Shown in pieces: positions 18,240-54,810 of a DNA stretch of 64,000 bases. The position numbers were made by a program, and so were the translations under genes. The notes under the pieces were generated by a model. The model made no database searches and was not told the origin of the DNA. It worked only from the letters and a program-made list of their open reading frames with translations. Position 1 is the stretch's first letter, and every line of letters starts with the position of its first letter. Origin of the DNA: Candidatus Peregrinibacteria bacterium (GTDB lineage Bacteria; Patescibacteriota; Gracilibacteria; UBA1369; PNNO01); contig JAFGJT010000012.1 in assembly GCA_016928915.1 (NCBI GenBank), positions 1 through 64,000 of the forward strand. Direction: 5' to 3'.

Positions 18240-18268
18240 TTGACAAAATTGCTTTTTTGACGTAATCT
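18240..18268 (+). promoter_or_regulatory. sigma70-like promoter TTGACA-N17-TAATCT (leader of gene A)
   Basis: Hexamers read directly; also lies in inverted repeat TTGACAAAAT (18240-18249)/ATTTTGTCAA (18284-18293). Confidence 0.6.
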
Positions 18269-18400
18269 TTACGCCTTATTTTGATTTTGTCAAAAAGCAT
18301 GATTGTGTTCAAGTTAAAAATTGGATTTATTGTAAGGCCGTTTAGCTAATTGTGTTATACCTAAATGGTTTTTTGTTCTTTGAAAATCAGGATAAAAAAG

Positions 18401-18499
18401 CACAGAGAATGTTCTGCTCAGACTGCGACCTAAAGCCGGTCCGGGTTTTATATAATCTGCATCCCGAGTCTTTAGTCGCGGGCAGAACTATTCTCTGTG
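18401..18499 (+). ncRNA. ~99-nt structured RNA element (long hairpin) in gene A leader
   Basis: CACAGAGAAU-GUUCUGC...GCAGAAC-A-AUUCUCUGUG outer stem, inner GCGAC(C)UAAAG/CUUUAGUCGC and CGGG/CCCG helices. Confidence 0.6.
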
Positions 18500-18532
18500 T
18501 CTGTAAGTAATAATATTTGAAGGAAGATTATG

Positions 18533-18573
18533 CCTGCGGCTTAATAATTAATATTAACTCTGCCGCGGGTTTT
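18533..18573 (+). terminator. terminator/attenuator-like hairpin in gene A leader
   Basis: CCTGCGGC...GCCGCGGG followed by TTTT. Confidence 0.45.
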
Positions 18574-18610
18574 AAAAATAACTTTGATAGAGGCAAATCA
18601 GCGGCGGATC

Positions 18611-18689
18611 AGAGACCCCGTCGCTTAAGATTCCCAATCACGGAACAACCACAACATCCCCCTGTTGGTCTCTAAAAGGGGGAAGGAGG
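18611..18689 (+). promoter_or_regulatory. putative H-type pseudoknot overlapping SD of gene A
   Basis: AGAGACC(18611-17)/GGTCTCT(18667-73) interleaved with TCCCCCT(18657-63)/AGGGGGA(18677-83); SD AAGGAGG 18683-18689. Confidence 0.5.
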
Positions 18690-18696
18690 AATTGAG

Positions 18697-20100
18697 ATGA
18701 GTACGAGGAAGAAAAACGATGCAACGCAAGTGGGGATGGGGTCAGTAACCCCTACCCCGAAAACGCAACCGCAGGTTCGGGAATGCGCGAACTGCAAGGT
18801 GCCCGTGGCGCTGGAGGCAACGTACTGTCCTGCGTGCGCGTACTCCTTGGTGCCCGCGGCTTCGGCAGCGGCGGTCCCCGCGGCGCCGGACACGTCTCCG
18901 CCGCCGACCACACCTTCCTCAGAACCCGCGTCGGCTCCGCTGACGTCGGATTCATCGCCAGCGGTTTCTGGGGCAATCGATACCTCTACCCCAGTTCTGG
19001 CGATTCCCGCAGCACCAACGCCCACGGCGACTGCAGCGGCTCCGGCTCCCACGCCCACGCCTTCTGCGACCCCCGCGAACACCGCGCCTCCGACGGTCGT
19101 TGTTGTGCAGCCGCCTCCGGCGGCCGCACCTGCGCCGTCCCCCGCGGCTCCGGCCTCCACGCCTCCCCCGGTGGTCCCCCCGAACCCCACCCCCAAGGCC
19201 TCGTCGGGTTTGATGTGGCTGCTACTGCCGCTCATCGTGGTGGTCACGGGCGGCCTGATCTGGGCCGGGATTTACTTTCACGGCCGGAAGCCGCCAGCCC
19301 CCTCTTCGGGGGCAAGCGCCTCGACAGCGGCGCCTTATCTGCCTCCCGGCAGCATGAACGCGCCTTCCGCGCCGACAGCGACTGTGACTCCGGTGAAGCC
19401 CACGGTCACGCCTTCCACCACCGCACCAGCAGTGACGCCCCCGGTCACGCCGCCGACGGCAGCGCCGGCCTCAACGCCACCGGCGAGCATGGCTGCTCCG
19501 GTGACGGCAGCCCCGCTGGCCGCGACTTGGCAGCAGAGCAGCATCGGCCGCCTCTGCTCGGCCCAGGCAGCTATATCACTTCGTCGGACCATATTCTGTG
19601 TCCATGATAAGGACATGGAATGGTTTGACGCATGTCACGACCCGCCTCTACCGGTCGGCACCCCTACCTACCCGGGCGACAAGGTAGGCGTGGATGTGGC
19701 AGATCCTTGCCTCTTGAAGGTAGGTTCAATCTGCCTAACCTCCACGGCACTTCGCTGCCAAGTTGGGTACCGGGCACCACCGGCTCCCGAGCCCCCTGCA
19801 CCCCTCGCGGTGCAGCCACCGGCTCAGCCTCCCTGCCCCCCTCCTCCGGCCGCCGCTCCCCGGAGCACAAGCGGCCGAAAAGCCGCCCCCGCCCCCCGCC
19901 ACCGGACTTTCAACGGTCGGCTCGCCCGCCTCGAGGGCAGAGTCGACAAAATCGAAGGCACCGTGACCGATCACGGCCGACGGATTTCATCCGGTGAAAA
20001 CTGGATGAAACATTGGGAGGCGGATCTGATCCGCCTCAAACAGCAGAATCAGGCGGAGGGGCGCTCCGGCGTCCACATCCCCCGCGGATCCGGCCGCTAA
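18697..20100 (+). CDS. island gene A: zinc-ribbon, Pro/Ala/Thr-rich, single-TM protein
   Basis: CANCKVPVALEATYCPAC; TM LMWLLLPLIVVVTGGLIWAGIYF; C-terminal coiled coil; strong SD; abrupt GC rise. Confidence 0.75.
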   Translation: MSTRKKNDATQVGMGSVTPTPKTQPQVRECANCKVPVALEATYCPACAYSLVPAASAAAVPAAPDTSPPPTTPSSEPASAPLTSDSSPAVSGAIDTSTPVLAIPAAPTPTATAAAPAPTPTPSATPANTAPPTVVVVQPPPAAAPAPSPAAPASTPPPVVPPNPTPKASSGLMWLLLPLIVVVTGGLIWAGIYFHGRKPPAPSSGASASTAAPYLPPGSMNAPSAPTATVTPVKPTVTPSTTAPAVTPPVTPPTAAPASTPPASMAAPVTAAPLAATWQQSSIGRLCSAQAAISLRRTIFCVHDKDMEWFDACHDPPLPVGTPTYPGDKVGVDVADPCLLKVGSICLTSTALRCQVGYRAPPAPEPPAPLAVQPPAQPPCPPPPAAAPRSTSGRKAAPAPRHRTFNGRLARLEGRVDKIEGTVTDHGRRISSGENWMKHWEADLIRLKQQNQAEGRSGVHIPRGSGR

Positions 20101-24077: not shown

Positions 24078-24185
24078 CGCGGCCCTTTAAAATGCTTACG
24101 GCCGCTTGTACCCCGAAGACGGGATTTGTTTATTCATATCCGCCCCTTTAAAGCCAGGGGGCGGATGTACCCCGCCAAGGCGGGG
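24078..24185. repeat. tandem pair of double-hairpin elements
   Basis: GCGGCC ctttaaaatgctta GGCCGC ttgtac CCCG aaga CGGG, then CCGCCCC tttaaagccag GGGGCGG atgta CCCCGCC aa GGCGGGG. Confidence 0.65.
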
Positions 24186-47165: not shown

Positions 47166-47801
47166 CTACCGGGCGTAGACCAGCCTAAACTGGACCGCAC
47201 CCGGGTAGTTCCAGTCGTCGTACCCATTGCTGGATACGAGCTGGAAAAGATTGTTCGGGATCGCCCCCTCTGTGGGACAACCGCTCGGAGCCAGCTCGGG
47301 TCTGTTCACCTGCGGGGAGCAGGCAAACAAAGACAAGATCCACTGGAAGTCGCGTGATTCCGACCAGGAGGCGGGAAAGAGGTCCGGGGTCCAGGTCGCA
47401 CTATTTGCATAGTACGACTGGAGCAGCTGGATGAAAACCTGAAGGTTCCCGGAAGGAACCGTCCATATCTCCATGGGCGCCTCCGCGTCAACTGCGAGCC
47501 GATCTTCGCCCGAGACAATCATCACGGCCGGACGGACGAGGGTCAGCGTGTGGGCCACGTTCACTTGACTCGGCAGGAAATTGTCCTGTGCCGAGTACTC
47601 CGAAGTCATCACAGCGATGTGGCCCGTGGAGGCCACGGTCAAGCGCGTTGACCGAGTGGAGGTGTTGTTGTTGGTGTTGGTGGTGTTGTAGTTCGTGTTG
47701 TCGCAGTTGTAGTAGCAGTCATCGTGGTCGTTACAACCGCCGATCGTCGCGATCATGAAACAAACCCAAACCCCGATCCAAATTTCGCTCATCTTTTTCA
47801 T
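47166..47801 (-). CDS. island gene B: putative lipoprotein, hypothetical
   Basis: MKKMSEIWIGVWVCFMIATIGGC lipobox; SD AGGAG before ATG 47801; Asn/Thr-rich linker. Confidence 0.7.
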   Translation of the reverse strand: MKKMSEIWIGVWVCFMIATIGGCNDHDDCYYNCDNTNYNTTNTNNNTSTRSTRLTVASTGHIAVMTSEYSAQDNFLPSQVNVAHTLTLVRPAVMIVSGEDRLAVDAEAPMEIWTVPSGNLQVFIQLLQSYYANSATWTPDLFPASWSESRDFQWILSLFACSPQVNRPELAPSGCPTEGAIPNNLFQLVSSNGYDDWNYPGAVQFRLVYAR

Positions 47802-48061
47802 GTCTGTTCTCCTTTTCTTCCGGGCTTTCGCCCTTTGTTTGAGTTGATTTTCGTTCCTCAATCGATGGGTTGTGCAAACTTAAAATCAAATATTTTGCTG
47901 TAAGCCCTCTTACTATGTGAACATGTTGCAGTAGACTAAAATATTAAATTTTTATGCTCGCAGAACCCATCGAAATCATTAATACAAGCGGGTTTTCAAA
48001 GGTCGATTTCAAAGGCATTTAATTTCTTAAAACCTTTGAAAATGCATAAGCATGAGTTGTA

Positions 48062-48089
48062 ATTTTAATACAAATCACAAAAAAGTCAA
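48062..48089 (-). promoter_or_regulatory. sigma70-like promoter TTGACT-N16-TAAAAT for gene B
   Basis: Read on minus strand. Confidence 0.45.
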
Positions 48090-48173
48090 TAAGATTAAAA
48101 TACAACTAAATAAATAACCAAAAAATATAACTTTACTTGGAAATTTTAATTACGAAAAAAAAATTATATATGG

Positions 48174-48203
48174 AAAAGGCCGGTAAGGAACTACCGGCCT
48201 TTT
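48174..48203 (-). terminator. strong (bidirectional) rho-independent terminator of the D-C operon
   Basis: AAAAGGCCGGTA ggaac-type loop TACCGGCCTTTT, perfect 12-bp stem. Confidence 0.88.
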
Positions 48204-48271
48204 TTGGTTGGACCTCTCCTCTCACTTCTTTCGAAGGAGAAGAGAGGTTGAATTACGGAGGGAAATTCATA

Positions 48272-48841
48272 TTAATAACAAGTAACGTTATCCGGTTGGC
48301 AAATGCGGTCGCCATTTGTATCCACCCACTGGGTACATTTACCATTGTAACATGTACCCAATGGAGCCCCAGTCAGACAGGGAGTACCAGCATTTGAACC
48401 TGCATTGCACGGGTTGGTCCACAGGGAGCACCGAGCGAACCCTTGGCAGTCTGCATCAACGCAGTCACGGTAGGTATCCCCATCGTTGTCAACGCCATCG
48501 TTGCAGATTTCTGAACCGGCACAGGCGGGATTGCCGAAGCAGTTGGAGTCGGCGCAGTCTGTCTGGCCGTCCCCATCGTTGTCAAGGCCGTCTGTGCAAT
48601 TCGTCTCCGTTCGGGAACCTCCCGAGCACAGACAGCCGTTTCCGCATGACTGGCTTGCGCAGTTGGGGTCCGCGCAGTCGATCAGCCCGTCTCCGTCGTC
48701 ATCGAGACCGTTTGTACAGATCTCGACTCCTGGGAGAGTACAGGCGGGATCTGCTGTGCAGTCCGGATCCGCGCAGTCGGTGAGACCGTCTCCGTCGTTG
48801 TCTGCCCCGTCGCTACAGTTTCCGGCGGCGGGGCCTTCTAA
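48272..48841 (-). CDS. MopE-like Cys/Asp-rich metal-binding repeats in the -1 frame of gene C (probable C-terminal extension by frameshift)
   Basis: Four NCxDGxDNDGDGxxDCxDxDC-type units; no SD/ATG of its own; joins gene C at A_AAC_CCT TAG. Confidence 0.7.
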   Translation of the reverse strand, partial: LEGPAAGNCSDGADNDGDGLTDCADPDCTADPACTLPGVEICTNGLDDDGDGLIDCADPNCASQSCGNGCLCSGGSRTETNCTDGLDNDGDGQTDCADSNCFGNPACAGSEICNDGVDNDGDTYRDCVDADCQGFARCSLWTNPCNAGSNAGTPCLTGAPLGTCYNGKCTQWVDTNGDRICQPDNVTCY

Positions 48842-51800
48842 GGGTTTTGCACCTCCAGTCTGCAGCTCGCGCTGCACCCGTCGCCGGATACCGTGTTGTG
48901 GTCGTCGCACTGCTCGCCGGGATCCAGAATCCCGTTGCCGCACTCCTCTCTCCAGCAGAAGCCGGAGCAGCCGTCACCCGGCGCGTTGTTACCGTCATCG
49001 CACTGCTCGCCTGGGTCTACGACACCATTGCCGCACCTTTCGATACGGCAGGTGGCGCTGCATCCGTCGCCGGGCAGGGTGTTGCCGTCGTCGCACTCCT
49101 CCCCCGGATCCAGCACATTGTTTCCGCACTCCTCGAGGAGGCAGGTCGGGCCGCATCCGTCGCCCGGGAACACGTTCCCGTCGTCGCACTGCTCGCCTTG
49201 ATCCACCACGCCGTTTCCGCAGGTTGAAACCTCGAAACGACAGGTGGGAGAGCATCCGTCGCCAGCCACTGTGTTCCCGTCGTCGCACTGCTCACCGAGA
49301 TCGCGGATACCGTTGCCGCAGACCTCAAACGTACAGATCGGACTACAGCCGTCGCCCGGAAGAGCGTTGTGATCATCGCACTGCTCGCCGGGATCCAGGA
49401 TCCCGTTGCCACAGCGCTCAATCACGCAATCCGCCGAGCATCCGTCGCCGTTGTCGAGGTTGCCGTCATCGCACTCCTCTCCGACATCGGTGTAACCGTT
49501 GCCGCACACTTCGATGCGGCAGAACTGGGAACAGCCGTCCCCATTTACCTGGTTGCCGTCGTCACATTCCTCGCCCATCTCCATCACGCCGTTGCCGCAG
49601 CGCTCAATGAGACAGGTAGAAGAGCAACCATCACCATTGACGGTGTTGCCGTCGTCGCACTCCTCGCCTGGATCGCGGATTGCGTTGCCGCAAACCTCAA
49701 GCCGGCATGAAGCGCTGCAGCCGTCGCCGGGGGTGTGGTTGCCGTCGTCGCACTCCTCACCGGAGTCAACGAACCCGTTGCCGCACTGCTCCACCATGCA
49801 AGTGGAGCTGCAGCCGTCGCCGGAAACCGTGTTGCCGTCGTCGCACTGCTCGCCGAGGTCGATGATGCCGTTGCCGCACTCCTCATTTCTGCAAGTTGAG
49901 GAGCATCCGTCGCCTCCAGTGTGATTGCCATCGTCGCACTGTTCACCAGGATCCACGGTCATATTGCCGCAGAATTCCAAACGACAGTTGGCAGCGCAAC
50001 CATCACCGGGCAGGGTATTGCCGTCGTCGCACTGCTCACCCTGATCCACGAGACCATTCCCGCAGACCTCGAGCTTACAGATGTTCGAACATCCGTCGCC
50101 GGCGAAGTTGTTCCCGTCGTCGCACTGCTCACCGGGATCAAGAACCCCGTTGCCGCAGAACTCCAGACGGCAGGCGGCAGAGCAACCGTCGCCAGCGACA
50201 TTGTTGCCGTCGTCGCACTGCTCCCCGAGATCAATGATCCCGTTGCCGCATACTTCGTTGCGGCAGACTGAAGAGCAGCCGTCTCCCGAGATCACGTTGC
50301 CGTCGTCACACTGCTCGTAGGGAGAGTTGACGACTCCGTCCCCGCAGGTCGAAACTTCAACGAGGCATTGATCGGAGCAGCCATCCCCGTTCAGGAGATT
50401 GCCGTCATCGCACTGCTCGCCGCTTTCCACGGTGCCGTTACCGCAGGTCTCGGTACGGCAGGTGGCGCTGCAGCCGTCGCCGGAAATCATGTTCCCGTCG
50501 TCGCACTGTTCGCCGGAGTCTACCACGCCGTTGCCGCACTTTTCAATGCGGCATGCCGCGGAGCAGCCGTCACCGGATACCGCGTTGCCGTCGTCACACT
50601 CTTCGCCCCAGTCTCTGATGCCGTTGCCGCACACCTCAAACTTACAAAGGGGCGAGCACCCGTCCCCGGGGGAAGAATTTCCGTCGTCGCACTGCTCCCC
50701 GGGATCCAGACGACCATTGCCGCAGCGCTCCTGCAGGCACTCACTTGAGCACCCGTCGCCGTCTTCAGTGTTCCCGTCGTCACACTCCTCTCCCGGGTCC
50801 ACGATGCGGTTGCCGCATTCCTCCAGACGACAGATGTTAGAGCACCCGTCGCCGGAGATTACGTTGCCGTCGTCGCACTGCTCAAACGAGGAATCCACGG
50901 CACCATTGCCGCAGGTGCCGGTCTCTATCTCACAGAGATCCGAACACCCATCGCCGTTTGCGGTGTTGCCGTCGTCGCACTGCTCGCCGAGATCCAGGAT
51001 CCCGTTGCCGCACTCCTCATCCCGACAATGAGCGGAGCAGCCGTCTCCCGGGATCGAGTTGCCGTCGTCGCATTGCTCACCGGGGTCAAGCACCCCGTTG
51101 CCGCACCTTTCAATACGGCAGTTGGCGCTGCATCCGTCACCTGCAAGAGCATTACCGTCATCGCACTCCTCCGAGAGGTCCACGATGCCGTTGCCGCAGG
51201 TTTCAGCGCCGCAGGTTGCGCTGCAGCCGTCGCCGTTTACGTGGTTGCCGTCGTCGCACTGTTCCCCCACGTCCACGACCCCGTTGCCGCACTGCTCCAC
51301 CATGCAAGTGGAGCTGCAGCCGTCGCCGGAAACTGTGTTTCCGTCGTCGCACTGCTCGCCCACGTCGGTGAGGCCATTGCCGCAGCGCTCAAAGCGGCAG
51401 ATGTTGCTGCATCCATCACCGCTTACGCGGTTGCCGTCGTCGCACTCCTCATTGAGGTCCACGACGCCGTTGCCGCAACTGTTTGTTTCAATGGTGCAGG
51501 TTGAGGAACACCCATCACCATTCGCGACGTTGTTGTCGTCGCACTGCTCGCCCGGGTCCACCACACCGTTGCCGCACCCCTCTAGCTTACACACTGGACT
51601 GCAGCCGTCACCGGCGATGTGGTTGCCGTCATCGCACTCCTCCCCCGGATCCACGATGCTGTTACCGCATCTTTCAATGCGGCAGGCGGAAGAGCATCCG
51701 TCACCATTGACGGTATTGCCGTCGTCGCACTGCTCCCCCTGGTCCAGGTAGCCGTTACCGCACTCTTCCAGACGGCACAGGTTGTTACACCCATCGCCTG

Positions 51801-53331
51801 AGAAGTTGTTGCCATCGTCGCACTGCTCATTGGGATCCAGGATCCCGTTGCCGCAGCGTTCCAGCTGGCAGGTGGCGGAGCACCCATCGCCTCCAGTCGT
51901 GTTGCCGTCGTCGCAGGTCTCGCCTTGGTCAACATTGCCGTTGCCGCAAAACTCAAACCTGCACACAGACGAACAGCCGTCTCCCGAAATCCGGTTGCCG
52001 TCGTCACACTGCTCATACATGGAATCCACGACTCCATTGCCGCAAGTGACGATCTCTACGGTGCAGGTGTCCGAGCAGCCGTCGCCGGAAACTGTGTTTC
52101 CGTCGTCGCATTCCTCGCCCAGCTCCACGGTGCCATTGCCGCACTCCTCAGTACGACAGATTGAGGAACACCCGTCGCCAGGCATCAAGTTGCCATCGTC
52201 ACACTGCTCACCCAAGTCCACGATACCGTTGCCGCAGTACTCAAGCATGCAGGTCGCCGAGCACCCGTCACCGGAAGCAGTATTGCCGTTGTCGCATTGC
52301 TCGCCCGGGTCCACGATGCCGTTGCCGCAGACTTCCAGCTTGCAGTTCGGGCTGCAGCCGTCGCCAGACGTATGATTGCCGTCATCGCACTGCTCGCCCG
52401 GATCCACGACACCATTGCCGCAGATCTCAAACGTGCAGGTTGCACTGCATCCGTCACCGCCGACGGTGTTCCCGTCGTCGCACTGCTCGCCCACGTCCAC
52501 GCGGCCGTTCCCGCACCCCTCCGTGAGGCAGAGGTTGGAACAGCCATCACCGGAAACCAGGTTCCCGTCGTCGCACTGCTCGTAAGGCGCGTCGATGTTT
52601 CCATCGCCGCAAGTACTGATCTCCAGCTGGCAGGTTGGGCTGCAGCCGTCGCCGGCGTTTGAATTGCCGTCGTCGCACTCCTCGTTGGGATCGCGGACGC
52701 CGTTGCCGCATACTTCCAAGCGGCAGAAAGGCGTACACCCGTCTACTGCCTGGTTGTTGCCGTCATCGCACTGCTCGCCGGGGTCCAAGACCCCGTTGCC
52801 GCAGTACTCCAGCTGGCAGGTTGGGCTGCAGCCGTCGCCGGCGTTTGAATTGCCGTCGTCGCACTGCTCACCGGGATCTGCGATTGAATTTCCGCAGATT
52901 TCATTCCGGCAGATTGGTGAGCACCCGTCGCCGGGTATTGTGTTCCCGTCGTCGCACTGCTCGCCCACATCCACCACCCCGTTGCCACACCTTTCAATGC
53001 GGCACATTCCGGAGCACCCGTCACCGTTGGTTACGTTCCCATCGTCGCACTCCTCCCCCACCTCCTTGACCCCGTTGCCGCACACAGCGGGCAAGGGGCA
53101 GTCAGTAGGACAGTTGGACGCGGTCTCGCCGGGGTCGCAAATGCCGTTGCCGCAGAAACCGCCGCCATCGGGCCCGGGGCCGGACGCGTCGGTGGTTCCA
53201 CCACCATCCCAACACCCCGGGTCGTTGGGGTTCAGGCACCTGGGATTAAATCTATCCGGGTCGGAGTTGCACCCCGACCCGATGACGATCGCGCTGACCG
53301 CAAGGGCCAGCAAGAAATTCACGCGTTTCAT
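48838..53331 (-). CDS. island gene C: giant lipoprotein with 45 DUF4215/Myxococcus Cys-rich-type repeats
   Basis: Lipobox VIGSGC; 45 counted copies of [30 protein letters not shown]; SD AAGGAGG. Confidence 0.93.
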
Positions 53332-53345
53332 GGAAATCCTCCTTC

Positions 53346-53380
53346 CCCCGCCCGGCCTCTTTTCAAGGCAATGGGCGGGG
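53346..53380 (-). promoter_or_regulatory. intergenic hairpin immediately upstream of gene C SD
   Basis: CCCCGCCC/GGGCGGGG (8 bp) with inner GCCTT/GAGGC helix. Confidence 0.7.
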
Positions 53381-53390
53381 TGTTGTTGAG

Positions 53391-54521
53391 TTAGAACCTG
53401 GCCTTGAGCCCAAAAACCAGGGCATGTGTCCAGACGTTGGTCTCCTTATGTTCGTATGGAATACCTCCGGGGTTCTGAACCATGCGGTTCAGGCTAACCG
53501 AAAGGAGGTACGAAAAGTCGAGCCCGATCGGCGAGCTGGGATGGAACCAGAACGTGCCGCCGAGGCGGACGAACCAAATTCCTCCCGCATCGGTGCCGCC
53601 CTCAATCTGCCGTACCCACCCCTCGTCCGTCTGAAACGGGATGGAATCCGGCATAATCAGAACGCGGCCGCCGAAGCCGGTTTGGAGGTACAGGCTGGCC
53701 CAGTTCCACAAATCAACACGCGGCTCAATGTAGGCCGCCGCGTCGATCTGGAGGGCGCTCTCGTCCTCGTTGACGATCTGGCTCTCCGGGCCGCGAAACT
53801 CCAACTGGTAGGCCACTAGATTGGCCTGAATCCCCAGCCCCAGTCTGAAGAACCGTCCCGGCCTCCAGAGGTCACCCGTCAGGGAGATCAAAACTCCCCC
53901 ACCGGGCTTGCCTGCAGTCTCGGGAGCCCAAAGACCCCCAATACCAAGGCTCAACTTGCCCCAGGTCTTGTAACCCGAGGACTTGGCCGCCTTCCGGGCT
54001 TCGTCCGCGGATTTCTCCGCGTTACCGGCCCTTCGTGCAGCCTCTTCGGCCTTCTCACGAGCCCGGGCCGCATCCTCGTCCACGTCTTCCACGGTCCTTC
54101 CGAGGACCATGTTGACGCGGAAAGTCGCATTGATCGTAGGAAGCGTGATATCCGCCTCCACACGATCGCCCGCAACCGCACCTACACGCCGCAACAAGAT
54201 CCTCCAACCATTGTAGTGGTCGGAAAGCTTGTCACCCTCCTTCTCCATGGTGACGGTCATTCCACTCACGCTCGGGATGTCCGGCCTCCCGCACTCGGCG
54301 GAAAGCCAGAGGTCCGTGACGCGGTGCCTCGAGGTCACGGTGAAGTGCACCTTGCCGTCCACGGGCGCGGTGCCTGTGATACGGCCGTGGGTTCCGTCCC
54401 ACACCATGCACTTGCCGATGATCGACCTCCTGTTGCTGTTCCCCTGCGCCCGGGCGTTGCCACCCAGGCCAATGACCACGATGGCGCAAAGCGCGCCGAG
54501 AAACAACTTCATCCGTTCCAT
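53391..54521 (-). CDS. island gene D: secreted OMP-barrel-like protein
   Basis: Signal MERMKLFLGALCAIVVIGLGGNARA|Q; Ala-rich coiled coil; beta-rich C-terminus ending ALVFGLKARF; possible longer start at 54629. Confidence 0.72.
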   Translation of the reverse strand: MERMKLFLGALCAIVVIGLGGNARAQGNSNRRSIIGKCMVWDGTHGRITGTAPVDGKVHFTVTSRHRVTDLWLSAECGRPDIPSVSGMTVTMEKEGDKLSDHYNGWRILLRRVGAVAGDRVEADITLPTINATFRVNMVLGRTVEDVDEDAARAREKAEEAARRAGNAEKSADEARKAAKSSGYKTWGKLSLGIGGLWAPETAGKPGGGVLISLTGDLWRPGRFFRLGLGIQANLVAYQLEFRGPESQIVNEDESALQIDAAAYIEPRVDLWNWASLYLQTGFGGRVLIMPDSIPFQTDEGWVRQIEGGTDAGGIWFVRLGGTFWFHPSSPIGLDFSYLLSVSLNRMVQNPGGIPYEHKETNVWTHALVFGLKARF

Positions 54522-54535
54522 TTTCTCATCTCCTT

Positions 54536-54570
54536 GCCCCAGCGGGGCTTGTTTTGCCCCCGCAAGGGGC
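54536..54570 (-). promoter_or_regulatory. two tandem GCCCC/GGGGC hairpins upstream of gene D SD
   Basis: GCCCCttgcgGGGGC and GCCCCgctGGGGC, then AAGGAG. Confidence 0.65.
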
Positions 54571-54810
54571 GCTACGTTGTGGTTGAACGAACTTTTGCCT
54601 CTTTCGCATCTAAACTGCCTTTTTTTCATTTTCTCCTTTCTTCGGCAATTATCCAATGCTACTTAAGGCCTTTCAAATCACAAAACTTGTGTTTTTTATA
54701 TTTAACCGGGACTAAAAATCCCGGATTTTTTTCTTATTTTCCCTCCGTAATTTCAAATAACTCAATCTGCTTTGCCAATGACCTCCTAAACTTGTATTGC
54801 ATATATAACA

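Follow-up and report, generated by a model that had tools for sequence, protein, structure and literature searches.

What is the compact RNA fold that abuts the Shine-Dalgarno (SD) sequence of gene A, a switch that hides the ribosome-binding site or a fixed part of a structured leader? The gene lies in the window, a stretch of 64,000 nucleotides (positions 1 to 64,000 of contig JAFGJT010000012.1, assembly GCA_016928915.1) from a Candidatus Peregrinibacteria bacterium, to which all coordinates refer unless a contig is named. A sequence-only reading had described the fold as an H-type pseudoknot overlapping the SD, with the topology of SD-sequestering translational riboswitches, and the strands from which it was built (AGAGACC, TCCCCCT, GGTCTCT, AGGGGGA and AAGGAGG) are all in place. 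The features of the leader, from 5' to 3', are as follows.

18240..18268, + strand: putative promoter TTGACA-17-TAATCT with a weak -10, read from the sequence
18374..18390, + strand: boxA-like motif TGTTCTTTGAAAATCAG, matrix score 22.0
18401..18499, + strand: long imperfect hairpin 3' of boxA, folding z -7.42
18530..18544, + strand: mini-ORF ATG CCT GCG GCT TAA with AAGGAAG upstream, read from the sequence
18600..18625, + strand: hairpin H1, 8 bp (one G-U) with the 10-nt loop AUCAGAGACC, pair probabilities 0.81-1.00
18611..18617, + strand: 5' strand of the kiss, AGAGACC, 7 bp, partner 18667-18673 (GGUCUCU)
18629..18634, + strand: GAUUCC, able to form a weak alternative helix with 18688-18693 (GGAAUU), in which the final GG of the SD would be paired
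18657..18683, + strand: hairpin H2, 7 bp with the 13-nt loop GUUGGUCUCUAAA, abutting the SD, pair probabilities 0.94-1.00
18657-18663, + strand: TCCCCCT, 5' strand of H2
18677-18683, + strand: AGGGGGA, 3' strand of H2
18683..18689, + strand: SD, AAGGAGG, of which only A18683 lies within H2; 7 nt before the ATG at 18697
18697..20100, + strand: gene A, an open reading frame (ORF) of 467 aa, GC3 0.70

Hairpin H1 had been overlooked in the sequence-only reading and was found on re-examining the leader; its arms are AGCGGCGG (18600-18607) and CCGUCGCU (18618-18625). As AGAGACC sits in the 10-nt loop that they close, the element is a loop-loop kiss, and the interleaved fold beside the SD, which stands as a supported hypothesis, fits the term intramolecular kissing loop better than that of H-type pseudoknot: two stable hairpins, separated by a linker of 31 nt, whose loops share a 7-bp Watson-Crick match. 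Both hairpins are highly probable even when pseudoknots are left out of the ensemble, with most pairs exceeding 0.97 and the weakest, an end pair, reaching 0.81, and the loop-loop duplex amounts to -10.7 kcal/mol, topological penalty excluded. Nested folding is unable to score the kiss itself, and the whole segment folds no better than its shuffles (z -1.03 and -1.28).

How unusual such an arrangement is depends on how it is described. For these scans, the genome was assembled stretch by stretch, giving 1,127,696 bases in 20 contigs at 38.2% GC. H-type pseudoknots with two 7-bp stems and connectors of at most 4 nt occur in 222 overlapping 300-nt tiles genome-wide, both strands included, and in 23 of 30,000 shuffles of the gene A leader; since they are not rare, a description of this kind is weak evidence. 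Kissing pairs were defined more strictly, as two GC-rich hairpins of at least 6 bp with loops of 7-16 nt, at most 60 nt apart and sharing a 7-nt loop complement with at least three G/C; under these thresholds, chosen post hoc with the case already known, the gene A leader holds the only pair in the whole genome, and 12 one-strand genome shuffles hold none. Dinucleotide-shuffled leaders gave no kissing pair in 30,000 at 7 nt and two in 30,000 at 6 nt. The window's only other kissing-like pair, seen under looser rules at 24079-24166 (- strand), lies just 3' of a tRNA gene and consists of two hairpins rich in GC, whose loops are complementary over 7 AU-rich nt (CTTTAAA).

The product of gene A has N-terminal CxxC pairs, a composition rich in proline and alanine, one transmembrane segment and a coiled-coil-like C-terminal end; by its sequence it looks like a structural membrane protein, neither metabolic nor transport. 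It has no match in Pfam and no known RNA-binding domain. Protein searches returned no homologue among 59 relatives, genome contigs, phages and plasmids, and low-complexity matches only among 384 genomes of the phylum; searches with the leader DNA gave chance matches only in relatives, no phage match and no second copy in the same genome. The locus can be followed by its order, which is kept in six family relatives (G001-G006, the genome of the window being G000): a signal peptidase gene, an interval of 1-2.4 kb and a convergent gene. In G001, G002, G003, G005 and G006, the interval contains a GC-rich ORF (GC3 0.52-0.84) encoding a membrane anchor or signal peptide, then a middle part that is helical or of low complexity, and a C terminus resembling a coiled coil; G004 lacks both the gene A counterpart and the leader. 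Pairwise, gene A and a counterpart align RLARLEGRVDKIE with RVSRLEGRVDRHE at E 0.003 in a single comparison, a very weak similarity, so that homology of gene A to its positional counterparts is no more than likely. A foreign origin of gene A, as a GC-rich insert, was considered and set aside, since five family genomes have a GC-rich ORF behind this same leader at the locus.

What these leaders share begins far upstream of the kiss. The sequence TGYTCTTTRAMA precedes every same-locus ORF and is followed by a hairpin of 70-100 nt, which places a boxA at the same gene in all six gene-bearing family genomes. A matrix built from the relatives' gene leaders only ranks the gene A boxA first (22.0) among all positions of the genome and the genome's own 16S rRNA-leader boxA (C13:177274, TGTTCTTTAACATTTAG) second (21.0); the boxA of the gene A leader matches the rRNA boxA of the organism. 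The converse matrix, made from two rRNA boxA sites only, did not put the gene A boxA among its best positions, and a boxA pattern search at the rRNA loci of G003 and G004 found none. Elsewhere in the genome, a boxA-like GGCTCTTTGAAATTTTG stands directly 5' of an apparent tmRNA gene (C6:1239, - strand).

In each of the six genomes, the long hairpin 3' of boxA folds far better than its shuffles (z -5.5 to -7.6). In its base helix, for which six sequences form a small set, four of nine pairs are changed on both sides with 96% of cells paired, and slid controls show no two-sided changes. When 90 genomes of the order were searched with R1, a covariance model of the hairpin, each of the six gene-bearing members gave a single strong site, and nothing else was found except a weak antisense match to the same G003 hairpin. 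NusB is present in G000, G003 and G005 (PF01029 match); the Rho RNA-binding domain (PF07497, the sole Rho domain searched) was not found in the same three genomes, which makes classic anti-Rho antitermination unlikely there. Upstream, the relatives have TTGACA at the equivalent relative place (TTGACA-17-TACAAT or similar); the promoter at 18240..18268 is rated putative because a consensus scan made no call in this genome. Downstream, the mini-ORF overlaps a hairpin (18533-18540/18562-18569) followed by TTTT and is found only in this genome's longer leader; no intrinsic terminator was called in the leader of gene A.

The second recurrent element is a hairpin at the SD itself. Four of six orthologous leaders have a hairpin of at least 4 bp ending at most 3 nt from the SD, namely H2 in G000, CCCCU/AGGGG in G001, GGCCC/GGGCC in G003 and CCCU/AGGG in G005, against a background of 6% (5/81) for SD-led genes of normal GC (P=2e-4). 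The leaders of G002 and G006 have none as near as 4 nt to the SD; in G006, a hairpin lies further off, about 17 nt upstream. The loops of the relatives' SD-proximal hairpins count only 3-6 nt, so a 7-bp kiss is impossible there; no counterpart of H1 was seen in the five leaders. Covariation in homologous leaders had been proposed as a check on the fold: the kiss occurs in none of the five relatives that share the locus and is represented by one sequence only. Judged by these comparisons, the conserved biology of the leader is boxA with the long hairpin, together with the SD-abutting hairpin in four of six.

SD-touching hairpins are also concentrated in a few genes of unusual composition. In G000 and G003 alike, few genes reach a GC3 of 0.65-0.84 against a genome median of 0.35. 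In the genome of the window, five of six such GC3-outlier genes have an SD-touching hairpin, compared with 4 of 83 other SD-led genes (p=1.7e-5); the same filter applied to the complete relative G003 gives a weaker result (2/6 versus 4/89, p=0.045). The G003 outliers include apparent orthologues of four of these genes (gene A, a lipoprotein, an outer-membrane-like protein and an M23 peptidase), assigned by sequence inspection and, for the M23 pair, also by search. As several high-GC3 genes are apparently the same in both genomes, the bias seems to have been kept over time and not to be a recent import. A GC-rich island (about 62% GC) at 47166-54656 of the window (- strand) encodes a lipoprotein, a protein of 1497 aa in which DUF4215 is repeated 44 times, and another of 376-421 aa with an alanine zipper and, by eye, the look of an outer-membrane beta-barrel; apparent orthologues of the lipoprotein and of the 376-421-aa protein are likewise GC-rich outliers in G003. 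The M23 peptidase gene (G000 C1:46326-47369; orthologues L219-L226) has an SD-side hairpin in most family members. Its start overlaps the upstream frame by about 50-100 nt and the hairpin lies inside that frame, as does its apparent strong covariation; the M23 hairpin is for this reason not counted as independent evidence. This gene start is, by its sequence, a candidate for translational coupling.

Taken with the kiss, these elements lead us to favour, tentatively and with confidence just short of an even balance, a structured, non-coding leader that does not switch, at the 5' end of a fast-evolving gene: an rRNA-type boxA and a long hairpin upstream, H2 presenting or insulating the SD, and the kiss as a static clamp. 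BoxA would recruit NusB and S10, so that RNA polymerase would continue through the GC-rich transcription unit as it does through rRNA, and the long hairpin, by parallel with rRNA, may protect or process the 5' end. H2 would leave the SD exposed and insulated from the C-rich coding region, and might stack end to end on the duplex of SD and anti-SD. In synthetic leaders, an upstream hairpin with enough single-stranded distal sequence need not lower initiation, and with zero spacer between hairpin and SD, coaxial stacking with the mRNA-rRNA duplex is predicted (PMC3936740); a surface area of about 32 nt was computed for H2, which follows a 31-nt linker and has zero spacer. In this genome, H2 would have acquired a 13-nt loop that pairs with the loop of H1, most simply as a static tertiary clamp on H2, and the proposed function of the leader would need no ligand sensing. 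Weighing against this reading are the two orthologous leaders that have no hairpin close to the SD, the negative outcomes of the rRNA-derived matrix and of the pattern search at the G003 and G004 rRNA loci, the Rho RNA-binding domain not being found in three family genomes, and a minimum-energy fold in which the final GG of the SD is paired.

The loop match between H1 and H2 is real and unusual, yet it is found only in this genome; the kiss is most likely a lineage-specific stabiliser or a coincidence. Its coincidental origin is the strongest rival, unlikely in our judgement and still to be taken seriously: H2 would be functional, and H1 with its 7-nt complementarity would have drifted, inert, in a longer lineage-specific leader. 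Such an origin agrees with the lack of H1 and kiss in all five relatives, with a segment that folds no better than shuffles (z -1.28) and with the frequency of generic 7+7 pseudoknots in the genome; it is harder to reconcile with a position exactly at an SD and with the lack of a comparable pair elsewhere in the genome, in the 12 genome shuffles and in the 30,000 leader shuffles.

Two further readings give the kiss an active role. The kissing hairpins could form a repressor site, on which the gene product, a ribosomal protein or an RNA-binding protein would block or trap the 30S subunit. The rRNA-like signals upstream and the compact tertiary fold immediately before the SD would fit such a site, but the kiss is not conserved along with gene A, whose product lacks a known RNA-binding domain, and we consider this improbable. 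Equally improbable to us is a composite view in which the family employs the rRNA-style boxA and the long hairpin as a module dedicated to expressing a single hypervariable GC-rich surface-type protein, the conserved SD hairpin marks a few GC-rich genes, and in this lineage the SD hairpin has become a regulated kissing-loop switch at the ribosome-binding site.

A metabolite or metal riboswitch that sequesters the SD, as the sequence-only reading had suggested, is very unlikely, even though the topology resembles that of small pseudoknot and kissing-loop riboswitches. That the 3' strand of H2 runs into AAGGAGG holds for A18683 alone; AGGAGG (18684-18689) lies outside H1, H2 and the kiss, and the SD is thus not mostly paired inside a pseudoknot, which leaves the label of SD-sequestering riboswitch unsupported. 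No Rfam family matches this leader, and no conserved aptamer core emerges, H1 and the kiss being absent from the five relatives that carry the same gene; the structural look of the gene A product also argues against this reading. The helix GAUUCC/GGAAUU could be the sole route to SD sequestration seen: it belongs to the modelled minimum-energy fold, with unpaired values of 0.12 for G18688 and 0.26 for G18689, and is without comparative support. Least probable of all is a kiss between molecules, in which two leaders would dimerise or an antisense RNA would act as partner. Loops with a 7-nt complementarity could meet in trans as well as in cis, but the genome holds no second copy of the leader and loops 31 nt apart within one RNA favour pairing in cis.

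Should the favoured reading of a structured, non-switching leader be true, a lineage with a reduced genome would use rRNA-type antitermination signals, apparently without Rho, for a fast-evolving membrane protein, and SD-touching hairpins would be present in some genes as a positive trait kept by selection, not as repressors. The kiss itself also serves as a caution: a pseudoknot that looks flawless to the eye can belong to a single genome, with the conserved parts of the leader lying elsewhere.

Among known systems, the H-type pseudoknot translational riboswitches preQ1-I and SAM-II include the SD as part of the pseudoknot. The gene A leader resembles them by its interleaved stems beside the ribosome-binding site and differs from them by an SD that lies outside the pseudoknot. 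The guanidine-II riboswitch (mini-ykkC) places two kissing hairpins before the translation start (PMC9094411), and the gene A leader likewise has two GC-rich hairpins, a linker and a loop-loop kiss ahead of the start; guanidine-II is characterized by ACGR loops, a C-G kiss and an anti-SD in the linker, whereas the leader of gene A has loops of 10 and 13 nt joined by a 7-bp kiss, lacks the ACGR loops and has no Rfam match. H2 can also be compared with the hairpins of standby sites (PMC3936740), since in both cases a hairpin lies 5' of an exposed SD; unlike these, the gene A case is natural, has zero spacer and comes with a kissing partner. With regard to boxA, a literature text search combining boxA and Patescibacteria returned nothing on the subject, which is no proof of novelty. 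In gamma-proteobacteria, boxA is found before protein genes such as suhB and a ParE-like toxin gene of Citrobacter koseri; in the 5' UTR of Escherichia coli suhB, it lowers expression, translation being inhibited and Rho termination following (PMC5725501). The gene A leader shares with suhB-type leaders a boxA that is found outside rRNA, precedes a protein gene and has few targets per genome; unlike in suhB, this boxA stands about 320 nt upstream and is followed by a conserved long hairpin, in a genome where the Rho RNA-binding domain was not found. The closest likeness at home is the organism's own rRNA operon leader, in which a strand of a long stem likewise comes soon after the boxA core TGTTCTTTRAMA; there, the stem serves 16S processing, whereas before gene A it precedes a protein gene and closes locally as a hairpin.
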